Shown: piece after piece, positions 324-10,177 of the stretch | Layout of the letters: each line of letters starts with the position of its first letter | How positions within the stretch are numbered: the stretch's first letter is position 1 | Origin: a virus | IMG/VR virus record: IMGVR_UViG_3300025151_000193 | Span: 1 to 30,036 of that record | Strand: one strand, 5' to 3' | Length of the DNA: 30,036 nucleotides | Notes under the pieces: generated by a model | Told to the model about the DNA's origin: nothing | Database searches by the model: none | Seen by the model: the letters and a program-made list of their open reading frames with translations, nothing else | Position numbers and translations under genes: made by a program

Positions 324-483
324 GTCCACAGTTTTGCATGTTAATAAACCAGTTAGCTAACTGCACATCTCGCTTAGTAGCTTCTTTACGTGACTTAAGT
401 TTTTTAACCTTACTACAAGTAACATCACCTCCGTATAGTTTATTTATACGAGCTTTTAAAACTCCTCTATACGCTTTAGCCAT
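304..483 (-). CDS. Small basic protein, 59 aa, unknown function
   Basis: Reading the minus strand gives MAKAYRGVLKARINKLYGGD... ending GHGKKKT and TGA. It is lysine- and arginine-rich, with Cys at residues 23 and 52. Its ATG shares one base with the stop of the upstream 46-aa gene (TAATG), a translational-coupling arrangement. Its end overlaps the start of the 79-aa gene by 20 nt. The LANWFI segment near the C-terminus echoes LADWLI in that next protein. No family was recognised. The case for a real gene rests on clean packing between two other small genes on the same strand. Confidence 0.65.
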   Translation of the reverse strand: MAKAYRGVLKARINKLYGGDVTCSKVKKLKSRKEATKRDVQLANWFINMQNCGHGKKKT

Positions 484-623
484 TACTTCTTTTTCTTCTT
501 ACCCATTTTACCAGGTCCACCAGCCTTAGTACAACGAACACCCCAACCCGAGGCATAAGCGCTAGGCCATACTTCAAACTTCTTTTTTGCTGCAGCTTTA
601 CAAGCTGGACTAATTTTTCCCAT
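483..623 (-). CDS. PSAYASG-motif small basic protein, 46 aa (paralogue 2)
   Basis: The frame encodes MGKISPACKAAAKKKFEVWP, then SAYASGWGVRC, a Gly/Lys tail and six terminal lysines. The core F-E-V-W-P-S-A-Y-A-S-G followed by a Cys is shared with the 45-aa protein at 3429-3566 (Y-K-V-F-P-S-A-Y-A-S-G), so the window carries two paralogues about 2.9 kb apart. The motif is familiar to me from marine phage and giant-virus small proteins of unknown function; a link to the DUF6321/DUF5872 group is only a recollection. Cys 8 and Cys 31 might bind metal. The stop overlaps the next start as TAATG. Confidence 0.75.
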   Translation of the reverse strand: MGKISPACKAAAKKKFEVWPSAYASGWGVRCTKAGGPGKMGKKKKK

Positions 624-634
624 AATATTTTATT

Positions 635-679
635 TTAGCAAAAGCCGCAGCTAATGCAAATTGGACAGATATTTTCCAT
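635..679 (-). CDS. Candidate 14-aa cysteine-rich micro-ORF (CPICISCGFC)
   Basis: An ATG 2 nt after the stop of the thioredoxin-like gene opens a 14-codon frame, MENICPICISCGFC, ending in TAA. Four of its last ten residues are cysteines with regular C-x2-C-x2-C-x2-C spacing (residues 5, 8, 11, 14). The next gene starts 11 nt after the stop, so the micro-ORF fills the gap almost exactly. There is no Shine-Dalgarno site, but neighbouring genes lack one too. It could be a metal- or iron-sulfur-binding peptide, a translational-coupling leader, or a chance frame. Coding status is uncertain because it is so short. Confidence 0.4.
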   Translation of the reverse strand: MENICPICISCGFC

Positions 680-681
680 AA

Positions 682-1092
682 TTAAAAATTTGATGCTAAA
701 TTAATTTCATTTATTGCTTCTTGTATTTCAGCCAACCCCACAGGAAGCGTAAGGTCAAGACCGGCTTTAAATATTTTTTCCATACTACCAGACTTAAAAA
801 TAAGAACAGTAGGTACCATTCGAACTCTATATTTCTTTTTAGCTTGTGGCGCTTTTGATATATCAACTCTATAATATGATGCATTCTTTATCTGTTTCCA
901 TTCATTAAAACAATTGGCTTCATTAAATTTAGCCCAGAATTCAACAACTATCGTTCCGTCGTTATCATCCCCAAAAGCATTATCATTACGTACAGTTTGA
1001 TCAAAGTTACTATCGTCAATCCAGTATTTTTCTGGAACATCTGACTGCGCGTATGTTAAAGCGCTGATTAATAATAGGATTAAATTTTTCAT
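682..1092 (-). CDS. Exported thioredoxin-fold protein lacking the CxxC active site
   Basis: Residues 1-15 form a signal peptide (MKNLILLLISALTYA, cleavage probably before Q16), so the 136-aa protein should act in the periplasm of a Gram-negative host. The rest reads as a thioredoxin fold: VVEFWA at 49-54, a beta strand with YYRVDIS at 73-79, and the cis-proline loop RMVPTVLIF at 91-99 (Pro94). In thioredoxins FWA is followed by x-W-C-G-P-C; here the segment is K-F-N-E-A-N-C, so both catalytic positions are Asn and a single Cys61 follows. Classical disulfide exchange is therefore unlikely. The gene overlaps its upstream neighbour as ATGA and sits beside lysis genes. Function is unknown; a scaffold, chaperone-like or host-interaction role is possible. 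Confidence 0.8.
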   Translation of the reverse strand: MKNLILLLISALTYAQSDVPEKYWIDDSNFDQTVRNDNAFGDDNDGTIVVEFWAKFNEANCFNEWKQIKNASYYRVDISKAPQAKKKYRVRMVPTVLIFKSGSMEKIFKAGLDLTLPVGLAEIQEAINEINLASNF

Positions 1093-1373
1093 TGATTTTT
1101 TCTTATTTCATATAAACGTTGATCTATTTTTTCTAACTCTTCTAAAATTTTATCAACATCATCTTGTGTGTCCATTATTGTTTGGCGCACTAACTCATCT
1201 TTTAAATCATACTCTGTTCTTGAAATCACCGGCTCAGGAAGTTCTTTAGCAAGAGCTATATCAGATTTTAAAGTAAAATATGTTGTAGCAAGTGATATAG
1301 TAAATCCTATAATTATACCTATTGTCTTCAAATCAAGAGTTACCTTAGTGCTTTCTCCTATTTGTGTAGCCAT
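1089..1373 (-). CDS. One-helix membrane protein with coiled coil, spanin- or holin-like
   Basis: The 94-aa protein has a short N-terminus, one hydrophobic segment at about residues 17-35 (TIGIIIGFTISLATTYFTL), then a charged helical region from about 50 to 92 with heptad-like spacing (DDVDKILEELEKIDQRL). One N-terminal transmembrane helix plus a periplasmic coiled coil is the layout of inner-membrane spanins; some small holins look similar. It lies two genes downstream of the M15 endopeptidase, where a lysis partner is expected. Start and stop are coupled to neighbours (TAATG at 1373, ATGA at 1092). No lipoprotein outer spanin was found beside it, so the lysis role is inferred from position and topology. 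Confidence 0.65.
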   Translation of the reverse strand: MATQIGESTKVTLDLKTIGIIIGFTISLATTYFTLKSDIALAKELPEPVISRTEYDLKDELVRQTIMDTQDDVDKILEELEKIDQRLYEIRKNQ

Positions 1374-2542
1374 TATCTAAATGTTATATTGATTCCAAAA
1401 TTAGAGTTAAATATTTCTGAGTCCCAAAATCTAGTATATTCACCCTCTACAAATATTCCTATTGATCTAGTTACTTTCCATCCAAACATTAATCCTGCTT
1501 GGTAGTCGTCCCATTGCTCACCGCCTAGTAAATCGTTGTGACCGCCTTTACCCCAGCTGTTACGATGCAGATAACTAAAATCTTCGTTACCTTCTACATA
1601 ACTGTGATGAGGCATGATCCAGTTACCATATGCGTGTAGCCAAAAATTATTTTTATAATGATAAAAATCAAAACCAACAATTGGTGCTATCTCAGCAAAT
1701 GGATCAAGTTCTGCCCACGCTTCCCGGTTAAACCGATTCATTAAACTACCGTATATACGATCTCTAAAATCTTCGTCGGTATAAGCAACTATATTACCTT
1801 GTGGATCTCTCCAACACCAATGATACATTATTTCATTAGTGTTTAAGTTTTTATGTTCTATTAGTTCATCTACAAACCCGTACTCATAACCTAAGGTCCA
1901 CCATGGATGTAAAGCATTTCCGTCAGCATCCATTTCATTTAACCATATTTCAATAGGATTGTAACCGTATGCTTTTTGATGTGTGCGATATATAATACCT
2001 GCAGATATACTTAATTTATTTCCTATAGGTAATCTAGCTCTTACTTCGCCAGACATATATTCAAACCCAACATTACCAGATTCTCTAGACTCAAATTTAC
2101 CTATATGATATTTACCAGTGTGTCTTATGAATAAACGTCTATTATCAAATTCGTTTCCGTCTACTCTTTGTTTTTCCCAGTGCAATAAATATTCTAAACC
2201 TTTTACTGCAGCTGTAGGCGCAGATAAACCTACGTTGTTTTCTGTACCGTTATAAAAATTTGGTTTGCTTTCATAGCCAAACCTTGCTAGCTTACGTAAA
2301 CCAACACCAAAACGATAGTTATTTGGATGATATGTTGTTTGATCTATAACGCGAGGGATATCGTACAAGTTATCAGGGTTAGTTCTAACAAAATACTTTG
2401 CTTGCTCTAATTTAGCATTACCCACATTACCTGCAGCATATACGGTGCCATACTTTAAAAAGTCATCGTATAAACCTTTAAGAAACTGTGATTGCACATT
2501 AAAGGATAATAGCACTGCTATAAGCAGAATTAATTTTTTCAT
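1373..2542 (-). CDS. Secreted outer-membrane beta-barrel-like protein, 389 aa
   Basis: The protein begins with a clear signal peptide (MKKLILLIAVLLSFNVQSQ, cleavage near residue 17-19) in the style of Bacteroidota exported proteins. The mature part is rich in Tyr, Trp, Phe, Gly and Asn, with many short alternating segments such as KLSISAGIIY and QAGLMFGWKV. It ends in a strand, FGINITFR, with aromatic and charged ends like a terminal barrel strand. I infer an outer-membrane barrel or a surface-associated beta protein; the exact family is not recognised. It lies between the M15 lysin (ATGA overlap at 2542) and the spanin-like gene (TAATG at 1373), suggesting a role in late outer-membrane disruption or in modifying the infected cell surface. 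Confidence 0.7.
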   Translation of the reverse strand: MKKLILLIAVLLSFNVQSQFLKGLYDDFLKYGTVYAAGNVGNAKLEQAKYFVRTNPDNLYDIPRVIDQTTYHPNNYRFGVGLRKLARFGYESKPNFYNGTENNVGLSAPTAAVKGLEYLLHWEKQRVDGNEFDNRRLFIRHTGKYHIGKFESRESGNVGFEYMSGEVRARLPIGNKLSISAGIIYRTHQKAYGYNPIEIWLNEMDADGNALHPWWTLGYEYGFVDELIEHKNLNTNEIMYHWCWRDPQGNIVAYTDEDFRDRIYGSLMNRFNREAWAELDPFAEIAPIVGFDFYHYKNNFWLHAYGNWIMPHHSYVEGNEDFSYLHRNSWGKGGHNDLLGGEQWDDYQAGLMFGWKVTRSIGIFVEGEYTRFWDSEIFNSNFGINITFR

Positions 2543-2997
2543 ATTACTTCGTATTTCGTTTTGTTGTTTGAATCTCTATAAGCTTTTAAGCATCTGTTTC
2601 TATTAGAGTCAGGAGATACATAACTAACATGTACCCAATCAGGGTTGTTATCTGTTCCAAACTCCCATATGAGCTGATCAAAATCAAGATTGTTTTTTAT
2701 GTAATTATACATTTCTGCGTTTGTTTTGTGACCATATGTGTCATCAATATCAATTGCACGGCCTTCACAATGTTGTGATTTTGAACTACCTCCGATTGCT
2801 TTATTAAGCTCAACCGAACGAAAAAATGAATTAATTTTTATAGGGCCACCTACCCATTTGCGTAGTGGCTCAAATATGTTTTCTGCAATAACCTGCATAT
2901 TAGTCTTCTCATACTCGTTAGGTATATTGTTTATACCCCTTCTTTTGGCTGTGTATGAAAGCGTAGCTTCTTTATAACTAATGTGATCGCTTATCAT
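2539..2997 (-). CDS. M15-family peptidoglycan peptidase (probable endolysin)
   Basis: The 152-aa protein carries the D-Ala-D-Ala carboxypeptidase/L-Ala-D-Glu endopeptidase signature. It has SFFRS at 57-61 (normally S-x-YRS), an SQHCEGRAIDID block at 74-85 giving His76 and Asp83 as zinc ligands, Glu112 in IWEFG as likely catalytic acid, and WVHVS at 121-125 giving His123 as the third ligand. All key residues are present and the length fits a single catalytic domain. There is no signal peptide, so it would need holin-assisted release to cleave the peptide bridges of peptidoglycan. It overlaps both neighbours as ATGA and heads the lysis-type cluster. Some virion-associated M15 enzymes exist, so a tail-associated role cannot be excluded. 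Confidence 0.88.
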   Translation of the reverse strand: MISDHISYKEATLSYTAKRRGINNIPNEYEKTNMQVIAENIFEPLRKWVGGPIKINSFFRSVELNKAIGGSSKSQHCEGRAIDIDDTYGHKTNAEMYNYIKNNLDFDQLIWEFGTDNNPDWVHVSYVSPDSNRNRCLKAYRDSNNKTKYEVI

Positions 2998-3428: not shown

Positions 3429-3566
3429 TTATTTCTTTTTAGATTTATTACCCCAATTTTTTGCCCCAACCTTACGACATTTACTTAGCGCTCCACTTGC
3501 ATATGCAGACGGAAACACTTTATATCTTGCTTTTACTTTATGATAACACGCGTCTTTTTTTGCCAT
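3429..3566 (-). CDS. PSAYASG-motif small basic protein, 45 aa (paralogue 1)
   Basis: This gene starts at ATG 3566-3564, sharing one base with the stop of the 2203-aa protein (TAATG). It reads MAKKDACYHKVKARYKVFP, then SAYASGALSKCRKVGAKNW and a Lys-rich end. The Y-K-V-F-P-S-A-Y-A-S-G-A-L-x-K-C-R-K-V-G-A-K-N-W core is a recurring small-protein motif in marine phages as I recall, with no assigned function. Its second copy in this window is at 483-623. Two cysteines (7 and 30) flank the motif, again with a Cys soon after PSAYASG. Without this gene there would be a gap of about 140 nt in an otherwise tightly packed operon. Confidence 0.8.
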   Translation of the reverse strand: MAKKDACYHKVKARYKVFPSAYASGALSKCRKVGAKNWGNKSKKK

Positions 3567-6500
3567 TACTTTAATGATTTACGTTTTATAGATTTTCTTT
3601 TAATTCCTTTTGGCTTTTTCTTTTCGTTCTTAGTGTCTTCTTCAATTAATCCAACATCCCATTTGCTATAACCTAAAGCTAAAGATATAGCTTGCCAATT
3701 CTCAACGTCCTGACGCACAGGTGTAGTAAGGTTATCTAATTTACGTATTACGCGATCTGCTGGAATATTAGTAGTCGCAGACACAATTTGTCCAACCGCC
3801 ATATAAGCGGGGTTATCTAATGTAAAGCCTGCTTCAGACATTTTTTCTCTTGTGTTTCTATACGTGAATGCTCTACCTGCAGATGCTAGCTTAGTTATTT
3901 TAGAGCTAATAGGAGGGGATAGCTTTAATGCTTCATATGCTACTTTTTCATAATTAGGCCTACCTAACTTAGATTGTCTAATACCCTCAAGCACCATATT
4001 TTTTAATGTTGAAACAACTGCTCCGCCAAAACCTAAACCTCTAAGCAAACCATCAGCTGAACTATTTGCTACTCTAAAATATCGGTTGCGTACTTTTTCC
4101 TCTTCCTCGTCATCATCAAAAGCCATTGCAAATAAAGCAGATTGCAAAGAAGAAAATATAATGTTTTGTACAGCGCCGTAATACATTAATTTACTAAGAT
4201 TTGTTTTCCAATCACCTCTACCATAAGCTAAATCTAAGGCAGCCTTTTTTGTTAAGCGAGCGTATTGCATAGGTGTGTTAGCAAAAGCTAATATAATGCG
4301 TCCTAAACCGCTTGCTTGCTGCATAGATATGCGGTCTGGACGTGAAGATTGCTGTGACTCTTCTGCTATTTCTTGAAAATCTAAAAACGCTTGTTGCTGT
4401 GCGTCTTCCATTTTCATTCCTTCTTTCATATATCGATTTAATCTATTGCGATAAAACGATGCGCCACCTATAGCTATTGCATGCGAGTCTGCAATTTGTG
4501 TTGGCAAAAAACCTTTTTTAAGAATGGATGCAATAACTGATCTGATTGGATTTCTACCGTCTTCTGCTGCTTTTGCAATTTCATCTGCGTTTACATCTGT
4601 TTTCAAGCCCGAGCGACGTTCTTTTAAAAAGTCGGAGTTAAATAACATAGTGTAATCATCCCAGAATTGATCGCTATTCATAAATGCATCTGCCGCTGCA
4701 AGAGGATTGTTATCACTAAAGTTTATAAAGTTAACAAAAGACAATTGCTGTAATAATGCAGATCTAGTGTTAAAGAACATAATAGCACCAACAGAATCAT
4801 TTACCCAGTTTATAAATTTATTTGTTAATCTATTACCGCCTGTAATTCTACGTCTACCTGTTTTCATTCTATATAGAACATCGCTTAATGCTTCTATATA
4901 TCCATCACCAAACGCAGCTCGCAATCTGTTTGCTGTTTCGCCTTCTATTTCACCACTTTGCCCAAACTTACCAAATATTTCTTCTGCGTTAGAAAGATAT
5001 TCTGCTAAAAACTTTTCTCTTGACGATGTATTAAGGTAATCCAAGATATCCGTAGTTAGCGTGCCTCCATCCCAACTTTTTTCAACCTCTGGTGTTTCAG
5101 CAAAATTAGTTAAGTTTAATACTTGTCCAGCAAAGTTTTTAAGAGCGGTATTTGAAGACACTATTTTCGTTAATTCTTTTACTTCGGTTTCAGAAAGCCC
5201 AGGTATTTCCATACCTCTTTTCGTCCATATATAAACTCTTATTGCTGTTTCATTTGAAAAACCGGTTTCATTTGCTGCTTTAAGTTTTATATTCTGACCT
5301 CTTAATATTTTTTTCATTTGTCTAAACTGTCCCATAACAGTTTGACGATATGTTGTAAAATCATTTACGCCTTTCGCAAACGGGTCAAATAAGTTTTGCT
5401 TAAACCAGGCTAAGTCAGCATCACCTTGTTTTCCAGAGCCAACCATATAATACATAAGACCTGCAAAGTCATCAGCTGATGGCGGTATAAAGAATTTCCA
5501 CTTACCTTTGTTTTTGCCAAGCAATCGCGCTTTCTTTTCAGATATTTCAACATTTGCATCAATTTCTGATTTGTTACTAATCTTTTGAGCTATATCTGAA
5601 CCTAAACTAAATTGAACACCAGGAGCTATCATTCCGTTATCTTGCATTCTGTCAAACACTTGTCGCCTTTGTTCAGGCGTTAATGACTGATAACTACCGC
5701 GCGGTTGATTTGCAGATTGAGGAAACATTTGTCTAGTAACGGTTTCAAGCATGTCAAACTGGTCCTCAGCTTTAATTTTATTATAAGCTTTTTCGTTTGC
5801 TTTTATTTTATCATAAAATTCATTAGCTAAGTTAAATTGAATTTTACCATTTTTATATATTTTACCTTTGCTATTCTTTTTTAACCATCTTTCTTTATCT
5901 TCATATGTTGCAGTTTTACCAACGCCACCCTTGCTACGCGGCTTGTCCATAGCTTTTGCGTCTTCTAAAGATATTAAAAGAGTACGAGAAACTATAGGGG
6001 AATGTTGGCCTAGTACAACATTAGAAAAGCCTTTAGATGCAACTCTAACGCTAGGATCCATATGTTCATGCCTCCAATTTGTTACAACTTCATCATAAAT
6101 AATGCCCCCCTCTAAAGTGCCTAAAGATTTTTCTCCATTTATTATTTGAGAATTTGCACCTGCTAATTGTTTAGAAAAAATTAATCTATTCAGTCTTTCA
6201 AGGCTTCCTTTCTTTTCTTGATTTACAAAATCAACCTCTAAAGATTTTAACAAATTAAATAATTTTTGTCTAATTAAATTTGCATTTTTGTTGGACTGTA
6301 TGTCAAATATAGCTTGGTTGTCTTTTGATATACTTAAATTGTCTTTTATAGTTGTTAAATTATTAGAGCTTAATAATTTAGGACTTTCAGATTTAGTAGC
6401 TTCTAAAAGATCATTAAGTAAATCTCTACTTGTTTGTGAATATTTAGCAATATCTGGGGACGTTGAATAAACAGAATTTCTATAAGCAGCTTCAAATCTT

Positions 6501-9500
6501 TCTTTTAATTCTAAAGCCTCAGGGCTATTCTCATTCAACACGGTCCCGTCCCTTAGTTGCAATTTTTTTATGTGTGTTGGCTTGAATGTAACGCCATAAG
6601 AATTAACTCTATAATGATCACCTGAGTAACTATTTAAAAGACCATATAGTCCGTATTGAAAAAGCTCGCTTGGCATAAATAACCTAAACTGATCTTGCAT
6701 ATCTAAGAAGTCTTTCAAATCTTCATATATAAAAGTTTGATTACCGCTGCTTTTATCTGCAATTAAAATAGAAGTTTGTTGCAATTTTTGTATTTGGCTA
6801 TCGCTCAGGCCGTGAATACTTTTTAGTGCTTGTTTATTATTACTAATAACACCATCTAATGATCCTTGATATGTTTCTGCTGTTTCATAACTTAACTGCA
6901 AATCTGATGTCCCTGCTCCAATGTTTAAATTAATAACACCCGCTTTATCATTTTGTAGTTCTATTAAACTTCTTACTGTAGTATTAGTCATTAGCTTACC
7001 GGCTAAACGAATCATAGCTAGCATAGATTGAGCTTGTGGCGACTGACCACCAACAGGTATAAATGTACCATCAGGTCTTATACCAAAAGGTTTATAAAAA
7101 TCTTGAACAGTTAAGTTTTTCTTTAATTCAAAAGGTATTAGCCCCGCGCCTTTAGTTAATCTTTCTTGTTGAGTGTAAAAAGCCTGCTGCAGCTTTCTAG
7201 GTACCATTGTGCCTGTATTAATAAGCTTTTCTGATGCTGCTTCTTTTATAGAGCCGTCAGGCAACAACGCTAGCAATATTTTTGCATTGTCTTTTAATAT
7301 TTGCTGAACGCCGGGTATTTCTTTTTGGTTCAAGTTTTTTGTTGCTTGCTGCACTTTAATTGTTGGTATGCCAAAAAATTGACCTGTTATTTCAGGTGCT
7401 AAATCATTAAGTTTTTTAAACGTAAGATTGTTTACATCAAGATCTTTTAAAGCTTCTTTTACAGCGTCTATATAGGCATTTTTTAAATCATTAGGCAATA
7501 TATCTAATGGGTTTATTAAGCTTTCTAATCTTTGGTTTTCAGCTGCAATAAGTTCCGACATATCACCAATTTCTGTATTGTCAAATTCAACCCTTTCTTC
7601 AACCTCAGATATATCTGTTGTAAATTGTTGTTGAGTTGCTTCGCCTTTTTTAAGTACAGAATTTATTTTGTTTTGCAGCTGTGAGTTAACCCAGCCTGAA
7701 AGATTGTCATTAACTTCAGGATTGAAATTACGAATATGAGGTATTAATTCTCCAATGGCATCCATAATAAAATCTTCTTGATTAAAATCAGGAAGTTGCC
7801 TCATCTGAGGTGTTATTTTGCTGCCTATAAGCTTTTCAAATGTGCCTGCAGTATACATTTTTTCAATAGCAACTTCAGAGCCTTTTTGTTTCCACTGTTG
7901 CAAGGTTTGATTTGCGCCAAGCTCCTGCACAAAACTTTGATCAGCAGTACTAAATTGCAAGGTTGCTTGCTCTGCTGTTATTGGCCCGCCGATTGCCTGT
8001 AGAGCTGCTTTGGATAGTTTACCTTTTTTAATACTTTTATTGTATTCTTTCATAAAGTTATAAACACCTTTACCGTCTTTAAAACTTATATTTGTAAAAC
8101 CTAAAGGTCTTAAAAGAGAAACAATAAAATCACCTATTTTTGTAAATAAGCTATCTTCAAATTTTATTTGTTTTTTCGTAATAGCATCAGAAAATACAGT
8201 TAAATATTCAGTATTGTATTGATCTGGCCCATATTTTTTCATCAATTTTTCCATAGTGTCTCGCTGTTCACTTGACAATCTTTGTTTAAATTGAGAAACA
8301 ATCTTACCTTGCTCTTTAGAATTACCTATTTTGGCATTTAATATTGGGTGTAAAATTTCGTGAGCGCCAACATTAATTTGACCGTATTTTGCAGCAGCCT
8401 GTTTATCAATATATATTCTGCCATTAAATACCGCACCGCCTACTCTGCCTGAATTTATTTTTGCTAAATAATCAGGCGTTATTGTAACATTATCTTCTTT
8501 AAGCTTTGCTAAAAGCTCTTCTTTGTTATTTACTATAGAAGGGTCTTCAAGGTTTAATTGTTTAGCCGCTGTTGTTGCAAAATCAGTTGTTTTTTCTAAT
8601 AAACTAGATCTTACTCTATCTATAATTGACGCTGTAAGCTCATCTTGCTGCTGTGCTATTTGAGAAATTTGTTCGTTTGTTTGAGCGTCTCGTCTTCCAG
8701 GTTTGATAAACTCTTGTTGAATTATATCAATTTCTGAATTAATTTCTTTTTTTCTATTTTGAGCGGTCCTACTATTGTTACCCTCAAGCTTTTGTTTTTC
8801 AAATTCTAATTCAGCTATAGCTGTTCTTTTAGAGTCATCTGTAATTCTTTTATCAACCTGAACTTTATTAGTTGCTATTCTGGTTTTTCGATTAGCTTTT
8901 TCCTGCAGTGTATTGTCATTTTTAATTGACAATGATATTTTTGCTAAATCAATTCCTTCGTTATCGTCAATAAAATTATTAATATCTTGTCTAGAAACTT
9001 TTTGATTTCCAATTTTATATTCAGGTTTTTTAACAACGTTTGCAATGTTTCCTGCTTGCATTACAGAGACTGGGCTTAGCCCAATAACTTCTAATACACC
9101 TTCTTTTAAATCAATTTCATCTCCCGAAAAAGATTGTGCGGCAATTTCACCCGTAAATTCACTAGTGCTACCAACAGCAGTAACACCAGCCCCTGAAACA
9201 ATAGCTCCTGCTCTTTGGCTACCACCTAATTCTAAAACTTTTTTATTTGTAAAGCCAGCAAGTTTTTTAGCGCCAACCCCTCCTATTAGATTAAAAAGCG
9301 TTATAGTACCTGATCTTGTTACAGCTCTATTTCTTGCTTTTCTCATTGCCTCTTCATCTTTGAAGAAACTATCTATATCTTCTTGAGTATAATTTTCGGG
9401 TAATTCTCGCTTTATGCTTTCAGCCATTGATCCGAAAAGCTCAGCGCCTGCTCCAACTCCAGTAAAAAAACCATAGGCGCCCTGTGCCGCTTTCATTCTA

Positions 9501-10177
9501 GCGTCTCCTTTGCCGTACGTATAACCTAATGTGCCGCCTCCCGCAGCGTAAGGCAATACTTCTTTTGAAAATTGTCTAGCTGTACTTCTCGCGCCAATTA
9601 AAAAAAGATTATCTACGCCTTCTTCAACAGTAGCTCGAAGCGCTGCATATATAAAATCAGGCATATATTTACTACCTTCTTTTTCATATTTATCATAAGC
9701 GTTATTCCAAGCAGCTTCTCCCGGCGTTTGAGAATAAAGATCTTCTTTTTTAAATAATTCAAAAATTTTTGCAAGATCCTCTTCAGGAACATTTTTAGAA
9801 TATTCTGATGAATACAATGCTTTTTGCATAAACTCATCATACTCCGCACCCACGCTGCCGCCTTTCCATGCGTCACCTAATTGTTTAAAAAAGCTTGGCT
9901 CACTTTGTAATTCCAAAGAACCATTTGCCGAATTTAACTCCGTATTGTTTTCGGGTGCTACAATTTCCTCCACAGCCACACCCGGAACTGAGGGAATCGC
10001 CTTTCCCAGGCTAAACTGGTTTTGAAAGTCTGCATATTCTTTTGTGTACAAACCATCATTTGATAAGTTTTGAAACAAAAGTTTAGCGTTTTCTTGGCTA
10101 TTAAATTGCTTTTGAAATTCTTCAAATGACTTTGTGTAGCGGCCATCTGAAAAAAGCTGATTATATAATTCTTTCAT
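3566..10177 (-). CDS. Giant internal virion/ejection protein, 2203 aa, with zinc-protease motif
   Basis: At 2203 aa this is the largest gene here. Residues about 1-60 hold two tandem copies of an LYNQLFSDGRYTKSFEEF-type motif (second copy LFQNLSNDGLYTKEYADF). Residues about 180-390 contain Gly/Ala-rich hydrophobic stretches. Residues 606-610 are HEILH, a gluzincin-type zinc motif, with Glu657 (NTEYLTVFSDA) a candidate third ligand. Residues about 810-845 (RNFNPEV...LSGWVNSQLQNKI) weakly resemble sigma-70 region 2. Residues about 1890-2025 have a SSRPDRIS...GRIILAF...TPMQYARL block and a hydrophobic segment before DDDEEEE, typical of very large phage ejection or polyvalent proteins. Its position after two other internal-protein candidates supports packaging in the capsid and ejection into the host. 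Substrate and processing are unknown. Confidence 0.8.
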   Translation of the reverse strand: MKELYNQLFSDGRYTKSFEEFQKQFNSQENAKLLFQNLSNDGLYTKEYADFQNQFSLGKAIPSVPGVAVEEIVAPENNTELNSANGSLELQSEPSFFKQLGDAWKGGSVGAEYDEFMQKALYSSEYSKNVPEEDLAKIFELFKKEDLYSQTPGEAAWNNAYDKYEKEGSKYMPDFIYAALRATVEEGVDNLFLIGARSTARQFSKEVLPYAAGGGTLGYTYGKGDARMKAAQGAYGFFTGVGAGAELFGSMAESIKRELPENYTQEDIDSFFKDEEAMRKARNRAVTRSGTITLFNLIGGVGAKKLAGFTNKKVLELGGSQRAGAIVSGAGVTAVGSTSEFTGEIAAQSFSGDEIDLKEGVLEVIGLSPVSVMQAGNIANVVKKPEYKIGNQKVSRQDINNFIDDNEGIDLAKISLSIKNDNTLQEKANRKTRIATNKVQVDKRITDDSKRTAIAELEFEKQKLEGNNSRTAQNRKKEINSEIDIIQQEFIKPGRRDAQTNEQISQIAQQQDELTASIIDRVRSSLLEKTTDFATTAAKQLNLEDPSIVNNKEELLAKLKEDNVTITPDYLAKINSGRVGGAVFNGRIYIDKQAAAKYGQINVGAHEILHPILNAKIGNSKEQGKIVSQFKQRLSSEQRDTMEKLMKKYGPDQYNTEYLTVFSDAITKKQIKFEDSLFTKIGDFIVSLLRPLGFTNISFKDGKGVYNFMKEYNKSIKKGKLSKAALQAIGGPITAEQATLQFSTADQSFVQELGANQTLQQWKQKGSEVAIEKMYTAGTFEKLIGSKITPQMRQLPDFNQEDFIMDAIGELIPHIRNFNPEVNDNLSGWVNSQLQNKINSVLKKGEATQQQFTTDISEVEERVEFDNTEIGDMSELIAAENQRLESLINPLDILPNDLKNAYIDAVKEALKDLDVNNLTFKKLNDLAPEITGQFFGIPTIKVQQATKNLNQKEIPGVQQILKDNAKILLALLPDGSIKEAASEKLINTGTMVPRKLQQAFYTQQERLTKGAGLIPFELKKNLTVQDFYKPFGIRPDGTFIPVGGQSPQAQSMLAMIRLAGKLMTNTTVRSLIELQNDKAGVINLNIGAGTSDLQLSYETAETYQGSLDGVISNNKQALKSIHGLSDSQIQKLQQTSILIADKSSGNQTFIYEDLKDFLDMQDQFRLFMPSELFQYGLYGLLNSYSGDHYRVNSYGVTFKPTHIKKLQLRDGTVLNENSPEALELKERFEAAYRNSVYSTSPDIAKYSQTSRDLLNDLLEATKSESPKLLSSNNLTTIKDNLSISKDNQAIFDIQSNKNANLIRQKLFNLLKSLEVDFVNQEKKGSLERLNRLIFSKQLAGANSQIINGEKSLGTLEGGIIYDEVVTNWRHEHMDPSVRVASKGFSNVVLGQHSPIVSRTLLISLEDAKAMDKPRSKGGVGKTATYEDKERWLKKNSKGKIYKNGKIQFNLANEFYDKIKANEKAYNKIKAEDQFDMLETVTRQMFPQSANQPRGSYQSLTPEQRRQVFDRMQDNGMIAPGVQFSLGSDIAQKISNKSEIDANVEISEKKARLLGKNKGKWKFFIPPSADDFAGLMYYMVGSGKQGDADLAWFKQNLFDPFAKGVNDFTTYRQTVMGQFRQMKKILRGQNIKLKAANETGFSNETAIRVYIWTKRGMEIPGLSETEVKELTKIVSSNTALKNFAGQVLNLTNFAETPEVEKSWDGGTLTTDILDYLNTSSREKFLAEYLSNAEEIFGKFGQSGEIEGETANRLRAAFGDGYIEALSDVLYRMKTGRRRITGGNRLTNKFINWVNDSVGAIMFFNTRSALLQQLSFVNFINFSDNNPLAAADAFMNSDQFWDDYTMLFNSDFLKERRSGLKTDVNADEIAKAAEDGRNPIRSVIASILKKGFLPTQIADSHAIAIGGASFYRNRLNRYMKEGMKMEDAQQQAFLDFQEIAEESQQSSRPDRISMQQASGLGRIILAFANTPMQYARLTKKAALDLAYGRGDWKTNLSKLMYYGAVQNIIFSSLQSALFAMAFDDDEEEEKVRNRYFRVANSSADGLLRGLGFGGAVVSTLKNMVLEGIRQSKLGRPNYEKVAYEALKLSPPISSKITKLASAGRAFTYRNTREKMSEAGFTLDNPAYMAVGQIVSATTNIPADRVIRKLDNLTTPVRQDVENWQAISLALGYSKWDVGLIEEDTKNEKKKPKGIKRKSIKRKSLK

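Follow-up and report, generated by a model that had tools for sequence, protein, structure and literature searches.

The window, which denotes the whole 30,036-nt stretch of DNA analysed here (IMG/VR virus record IMGVR_UViG_3300025151_000193, positions 1 to 30,036), belongs to a marine phage that groups with podoviruses of Flavobacteriia in the MCP comparison. Its MCP is 39–47% identical to those of an uncultured podovirus genome, Maribacter phage Panino and the Flavobacterium 'elemo' phages, and Cellulophaga phages are related as well. The late region includes a single ORF of 2203 aa (3566-10177), far larger than its neighbours. The minus strand carries a late block with the following features in order of reading.

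2539-2997, minus strand: endolysin (PHROG 894)
1373-2542, minus strand: OMP-like secreted protein of 389 aa; in the window copy the micro-gene is not nested
1089-1373, minus strand: 94-aa protein, hydrophobic near its N-terminus and perhaps holin-like (weak PHROG holin match only)
682-1092, minus strand: exported pseudo-thioredoxin of 136 aa that retains the cis-Pro but has NxxN where CxxC is expected (Pfam PF00085, PDB profiles, AF2/Foldseek)
635-679, minus strand: tetra-Cys micro-gene of 14 codons plus stop, MENICPICISCGFC (ORF and relatives)
671-681, minus strand: flanking repeat 1, TTATGGAAAAT, at the start of the micro-gene, resembling 614-625
614-625, minus strand: flanking repeat 2, TTATGGGAAAAA, at the start of the gene for the 46-aa protein
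483-623, minus strand: basic protein of 46 aa, MGKISPACK..., which directly follows the pseudo-thioredoxin in L004 and L005

The pseudo-thioredoxin ORF scores 30 bits against the Pfam Thioredoxin profile (cut-off 23.5), PDB profile searches likewise give a thioredoxin fold, and the AlphaFold model (pLDDT 82.5) has thioredoxins of the PDB as its Foldseek matches. The protein possesses the thioredoxin fold (PF00085) and the cis-Pro loop with P94 and lacks the redox-active CxxC: within the active-site stretch FWAKFNEANCF both catalytic cysteines are replaced by asparagines (N57 and N60), and in the profile alignment to 6ali WCGPCR pairs with FNEANC. An earlier sequence-only reading, which had described an exported thioredoxin-fold protein devoid of both catalytic cysteines and had proposed a structure prediction, is borne out in this respect. 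Its further thought, that relatives with an intact CxxC would mark the cysteine loss as a private mutation, does not apply, the motif being present in none of 144 distinct sequences of clade relatives. Asparagine occupies the first position in 97% of the relatives and the second position in 99%, two very diverged versions included, and the cis-Pro is invariant (141 of 141 aligned), while the single cysteine of the window protein is lysine or alanine in many of them. Judging from these alignments, NxxN is a conserved, clade-wide non-redox site and an old state. A second, diverged paralogue occurs on two contigs (L098 and L116). Among public phage records the pseudo-thioredoxin only weakly matches one ssRNA phage protein (E 6e-3, 26%), encoded at 109-426 of NC_073930.1, a phage from activated sludge.

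Two bases past the TAA of the pseudo-thioredoxin gene lies the ATG of the micro-ORF, which reads from 679 to 635 on the minus strand and encodes MENICPICISCGFC, just as the sequence-only reading had it. The same peptide is present identically or nearly so in L006, L007, L008, L009 and L011, most of the DNA differences being synonymous. At about 50 of 80 thioredoxin loci the thioredoxin gene is followed by a peptide ORF of 11–14 aa with four, rarely five, cysteines, which starts 2, 3, 4, 5, 6 or 11 bases beyond the thioredoxin stop and in all three frames; these varied distances and frames rule out that the ORF extends the thioredoxin by readthrough or frameshifting. The types at this slot include MENICPICISCGFC, MCPFCPICICK, MCPICNGYCGLC and MCELCGGHCGLC, and further MCGIPNCPFCIGC, MCDFNCPFCTGC and MCEYCNGNCFC; MENCPLCGGYCGLC and MCPFCEICICK are further tetra-Cys micro-peptides. 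Over all sites the peptides measure 11–19 aa. The core of the window peptide, CPICISCGFC, has CxxCxxCxxC spacing, and other alleles display CxxCxxxCxxC, CxxCxxCxC or Cx3-4CxxCxxC.

Short ATG-started ORFs with at least four cysteines number about 105 in 1.09 Mb of related loci, many of which are near-copies of one another and some of which were retrieved by Cys patterns, compared with 4 in shuffled sequence; the thioredoxin-conditioned and OMP-conditioned locus sets provide cleaner tests. An RNA element was considered as well and rejected, seven copies showing no stable structure (z-scores -0.4 to 1.7), and the window contains no Rfam match. On comparative grounds the tetra-Cys micro-ORF is very probably a genuine gene and is presumably translated. 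No such peptides were described in the literature searched, the small-phage-gene predictions of Fremin et al. 2022 standing outside this comparison.

A search of 2.9 million viral contigs with the pattern of one allele family gave 93 matching stretches, nearly all of them ATG-started tetra-Cys ORFs, and the MCP family of the window was found in 48 of 50 carriers tested. In 85,000 bacterial and archaeal genomes there were five matches, four of which lie on phage contigs of the clade that are apparently misbinned into MAGs. These contigs (L347, L348, L349 and L350) sit in MAGs labelled Woesearchaeota RS366 and Maricaulis IN14. The Xanthocytophaga match lacks an ATG and is probably fortuitous; a host origin is rejected, all genuine genome matches being misbinned phage contigs. 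As far as these sequence searches reach, they show the micro-gene to be restricted to one phage clade. No tetra-Cys ORF was found in the stretches examined of MW202828, which is itself uncultured, of Maribacter phage Panino and of elemoF, and the OMP has no match among public phage records.

The micro-gene is most often found in the slot just behind the pseudo-thioredoxin, that of very diverged NxxN versions included, and this preference implies no functional requirement. At the 31 thioredoxin loci without a micro-gene in this slot no degenerate remnant is left there, and about half of these loci have a copy at another site of the late region. Other copies are located after the OMP, the endolysin (L066, for instance, directly after it) or a basic protein, or beside a lipoprotein or YfiM-like gene. 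Four contigs of 52–68 kb (G007, G009, G014 and G018) contain the thioredoxin without the micro-gene, and one 60-kb stretch (G044) the micro-gene without a recognisable thioredoxin. Since the micro-gene is missing from these four long contigs and also from some of the nearest relatives of the window (L001-L005 and L010), it is dispensable.

Copy number was assessed in 80 loci gathered by OMP similarity, so as not to condition on cysteines. One tetra-Cys ORF is present in 61 of these, none in 19, several of which are truncated, and two in no case. The copy is nested in the OMP gene at 25 loci, located elsewhere at 36, and never found at both; under independence such zero overlap has P = 4e-9, and 7e-6 when the set is collapsed to 49 OMP groups, both values ignoring the relatedness that remains. 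The genomes thus carry about one copy each. Only one genome was seen with two micro-ORFs, MCPICNGYCGLC and MENCPFCGSCTCN (L105 4057-4095, minus strand, and L159 6542, minus strand); L105 is an exception from outside the OMP set.

At the 25 nested OMP loci the micro-gene lies out of frame inside the OMP signal peptide, with its ATG 7 bases ahead of the OMP start. Homologous nested DNA is found in the signal peptides of three unrelated secreted proteins, namely the OMP, the YfiM-like protein and the lipoprotein. The lipoprotein, of 140–150 aa (MKIWKIALYVVAIAAFASCG...), is seen in L257, L259, L261-L263, L270 and others, where its signal peptide and lipobox are encoded in the next frame of the micro-gene. 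When the frame moves one base on, a TGY codon for cysteine becomes GCN or GTN, an alanine or valine codon, and for this reason Cys-rich DNA is hydrophobic in the next frame. The +1 frame is rich in Ala, Val and Phe, and the same DNA can therefore serve as the hydrophobic core of a signal peptide.

Relocation of the micro-gene is seen in the pair L300 and L301, whose OMPs are 89% identical: in L300 the copy is nested in the OMP gene, in L301 in the signal peptide of a lipoprotein. At the old OMP site of L301 the micro-ATG and three of the four Cys codons are absent and the signal peptide is intact (MKKILTLLFIAIFIISANAQ); the change was presumably a loss in L301. In L004 and L005 the unit that the window holds between the repeats TTATGGAAAA and TTATGGGAAAA is missing. 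Whole alleles are exchanged as well. The flanks of L025 and L023 are identical to 99.95% over 3,637 bp upstream and to 100% over 4,943 bp downstream, and between them one contig encodes MCPFCEICICK and the other the unrelated allele MCELCGGHCGLC, this second allele in the shared background resting on one contig and possibly being a mis-assembly. On the thioredoxin tree the allele type changes at least 11 times, or 20 times with absence counted as a state.

Selection was examined on minimal trees of 36 distinct free-standing copies, which show 22, 14 and 44 changes at codon positions 1, 2 and 3, respectively. Copies were detected by their cysteines, so that Cys conservation is partly ascertained, and the Cys codons were omitted from the synonymous test. 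In the remaining codons of free-standing copies 50% of changes are synonymous compared with an expected 23 ± 6%, a value reached in none of 1000 simulations. The ATG and stop are kept in these copies and the comparison indicates that their Cys frame is under purifying selection; the conservation with synonymous change and Cys retention that the sequence-only reading had proposed to look for is thereby found, in free-standing copies and in relatives of the window. In nested copies the share is 29% versus 23% (82 of 1000 simulations), which is not significant, as mutual constraint between the two frames would lead one to expect.

The reading preferred here, tentatively and just short of an even call, is that of a micro-gene mobile within the late or lysis region of this phage clade, which would encode a cytoplasmic soft-metal tetrathiolate peptide of 11–19 aa. 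The four cysteines would jointly ligate Zn, Cu(I) or an Fe-S centre late in infection. Inheritance would be as a cassette of about 40–60 bp, moved by recombination at its short A/T-rich flanks, and the same cassette DNA would double, via the +1 frame, as the signal-peptide core of a downstream gene. Metal binding is suggested by the maintenance of four cysteines through four spacings and by the likeness to the ferredoxin CxxCxxC (PMC3320576); with little else conserved, a tetrathiolate ligand would fit best. The variable spacing counts against one precise metal site. A bolder proposal, held slightly less probable, is that the cassette represents a new kind, in which an allele-swapped tetra-Cys effector or metal micropeptide is combined with a next-frame signal-peptide core, insertion being harmless and the number held at about one copy per phage.

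Among the alternatives, an effector directed against host or competitor, such as an inhibitor of a host enzyme, an anti-defence or a superinfection factor, with the thiols serving disulfides or target binding and alleles swapped in an arms race, is unlikely yet has the most in its favour. Replacement of a whole allele inside a near-identical 8.6 kb, repeated type switches and the variable presence among close relatives would all agree with it. No target or defence-island context is apparent, however, and retention of the Cys pattern while all else changes speaks for a role of the thiols and not of a recognition surface. Distinctly less probable is a dithiol redox carrier of the glutaredoxin or thioredoxin kind, acting in virion assembly or nucleotide reduction through CPxC/CGxC pairs. 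Most copies do contain two CxxC-like pairs, many of them CPFC, CPIC or CPLC together with CGLC or CGFC, but the second pair is broken in the CxC and CxnC forms, there is no fold to tune a redox potential, and four cysteines are retained instead of two. No better placed is a leader-like role, in which translation of the micro-ORF would control the following, often nested, gene, either through translational coupling or as a sensor of cysteine supply. The starts 2–11 bases past the upstream stop or 7 bases ahead of the OMP start would suit such a role; against it, the peptide stays constant while the downstream gene varies (OMP, lipoprotein, YfiM-like protein, endolysin, small basic proteins), and the non-Cys residues are constrained in free-standing copies too.

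It is very improbable, and disfavoured here, that a mobile signal-peptide cassette is selected for its +1 frame, with an incidental Cys frame and free-standing copies as relics. The homologous DNA in three unrelated signal peptides would be accounted for, but none of the 36 distinct free-standing copies overlaps a long ORF, their Cys frame shows purifying selection, the sites are mutually exclusive, and at the old site in L301 the cysteines were lost with the signal peptide intact. The split thioredoxin of the sequence-only reading, in which pseudo-thioredoxin and tetra-Cys peptide would act as a single unit, is favoured by the commonest site of the micro-gene and is nevertheless rejected as the least credible explanation, because the two genes occur apart, each being found alone; many micro-gene copies also lie elsewhere and the micro-peptide has no signal sequence. 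Delivery of the peptide by the fold fares no better given the copies at OMP, endolysin, lipoprotein and YfiM-like genes and inside signal peptides, and a fixed docking partner is unlikely because the Cys spacing varies too much. The pseudo-thioredoxin itself is best explained as a conserved non-redox protein independent of the adjacent micro-gene.

A gene of 11–19 codons normally escapes annotation; here comparative evidence by itself indicates selection on the ORF, and the approach offers a way toward other hidden micro-genes. Compared with thioredoxin (PF00085) and its non-catalytic relatives, the window protein shares the fold, the cis-Pro and the domain match and differs in being exported and in having NxxN for CxxC across a phage clade; with its conserved NxxN site and its presence throughout the clade, this pseudo-thioredoxin is a further gain of the analysis. 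With metallothioneins and other Cys-rich metal-binding peptides the micro-peptide has in common a very high Cys content, tolerance of spacing and no evident fold, while it differs in its 11–19 aa with four cysteines, in being phage-borne and nested in signal peptides, and in that its metal binding is only predicted; metal or redox studies could draw on it as a naturally occurring tetrathiol peptide. The ferredoxin CxxCxxC...C motif and the synthetic ferredoxin maquettes (PMC3320576, PMC10946529) are matched by CPICISCGFC of the window in its CxxCxxCxxC spacing. The micro-peptide is, however, free and not part of a ferredoxin fold, for which it is too short, and of the 4Fe-4S motif, a CxxCxxC with a distal CP, the CxxCxxC run is found in some alleles only, that of the window included, others being spaced differently. 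Alleles of the CPLCGGYCGLC type resemble two zinc-ribbon knuckles (CPxCG), here without the surrounding fold and 3 residues apart. Overlapping or overprinted genes of phages and bacteria (PMC4683798) likewise encode a second protein in another frame, as does the nested micro-gene. In contrast to these, the micro-gene cassette occurs free-standing as well and lies repeatedly within the signal-peptide DNA of three unrelated gene families, one short stretch of DNA thereby being used in two frames and by three unrelated secreted proteins.
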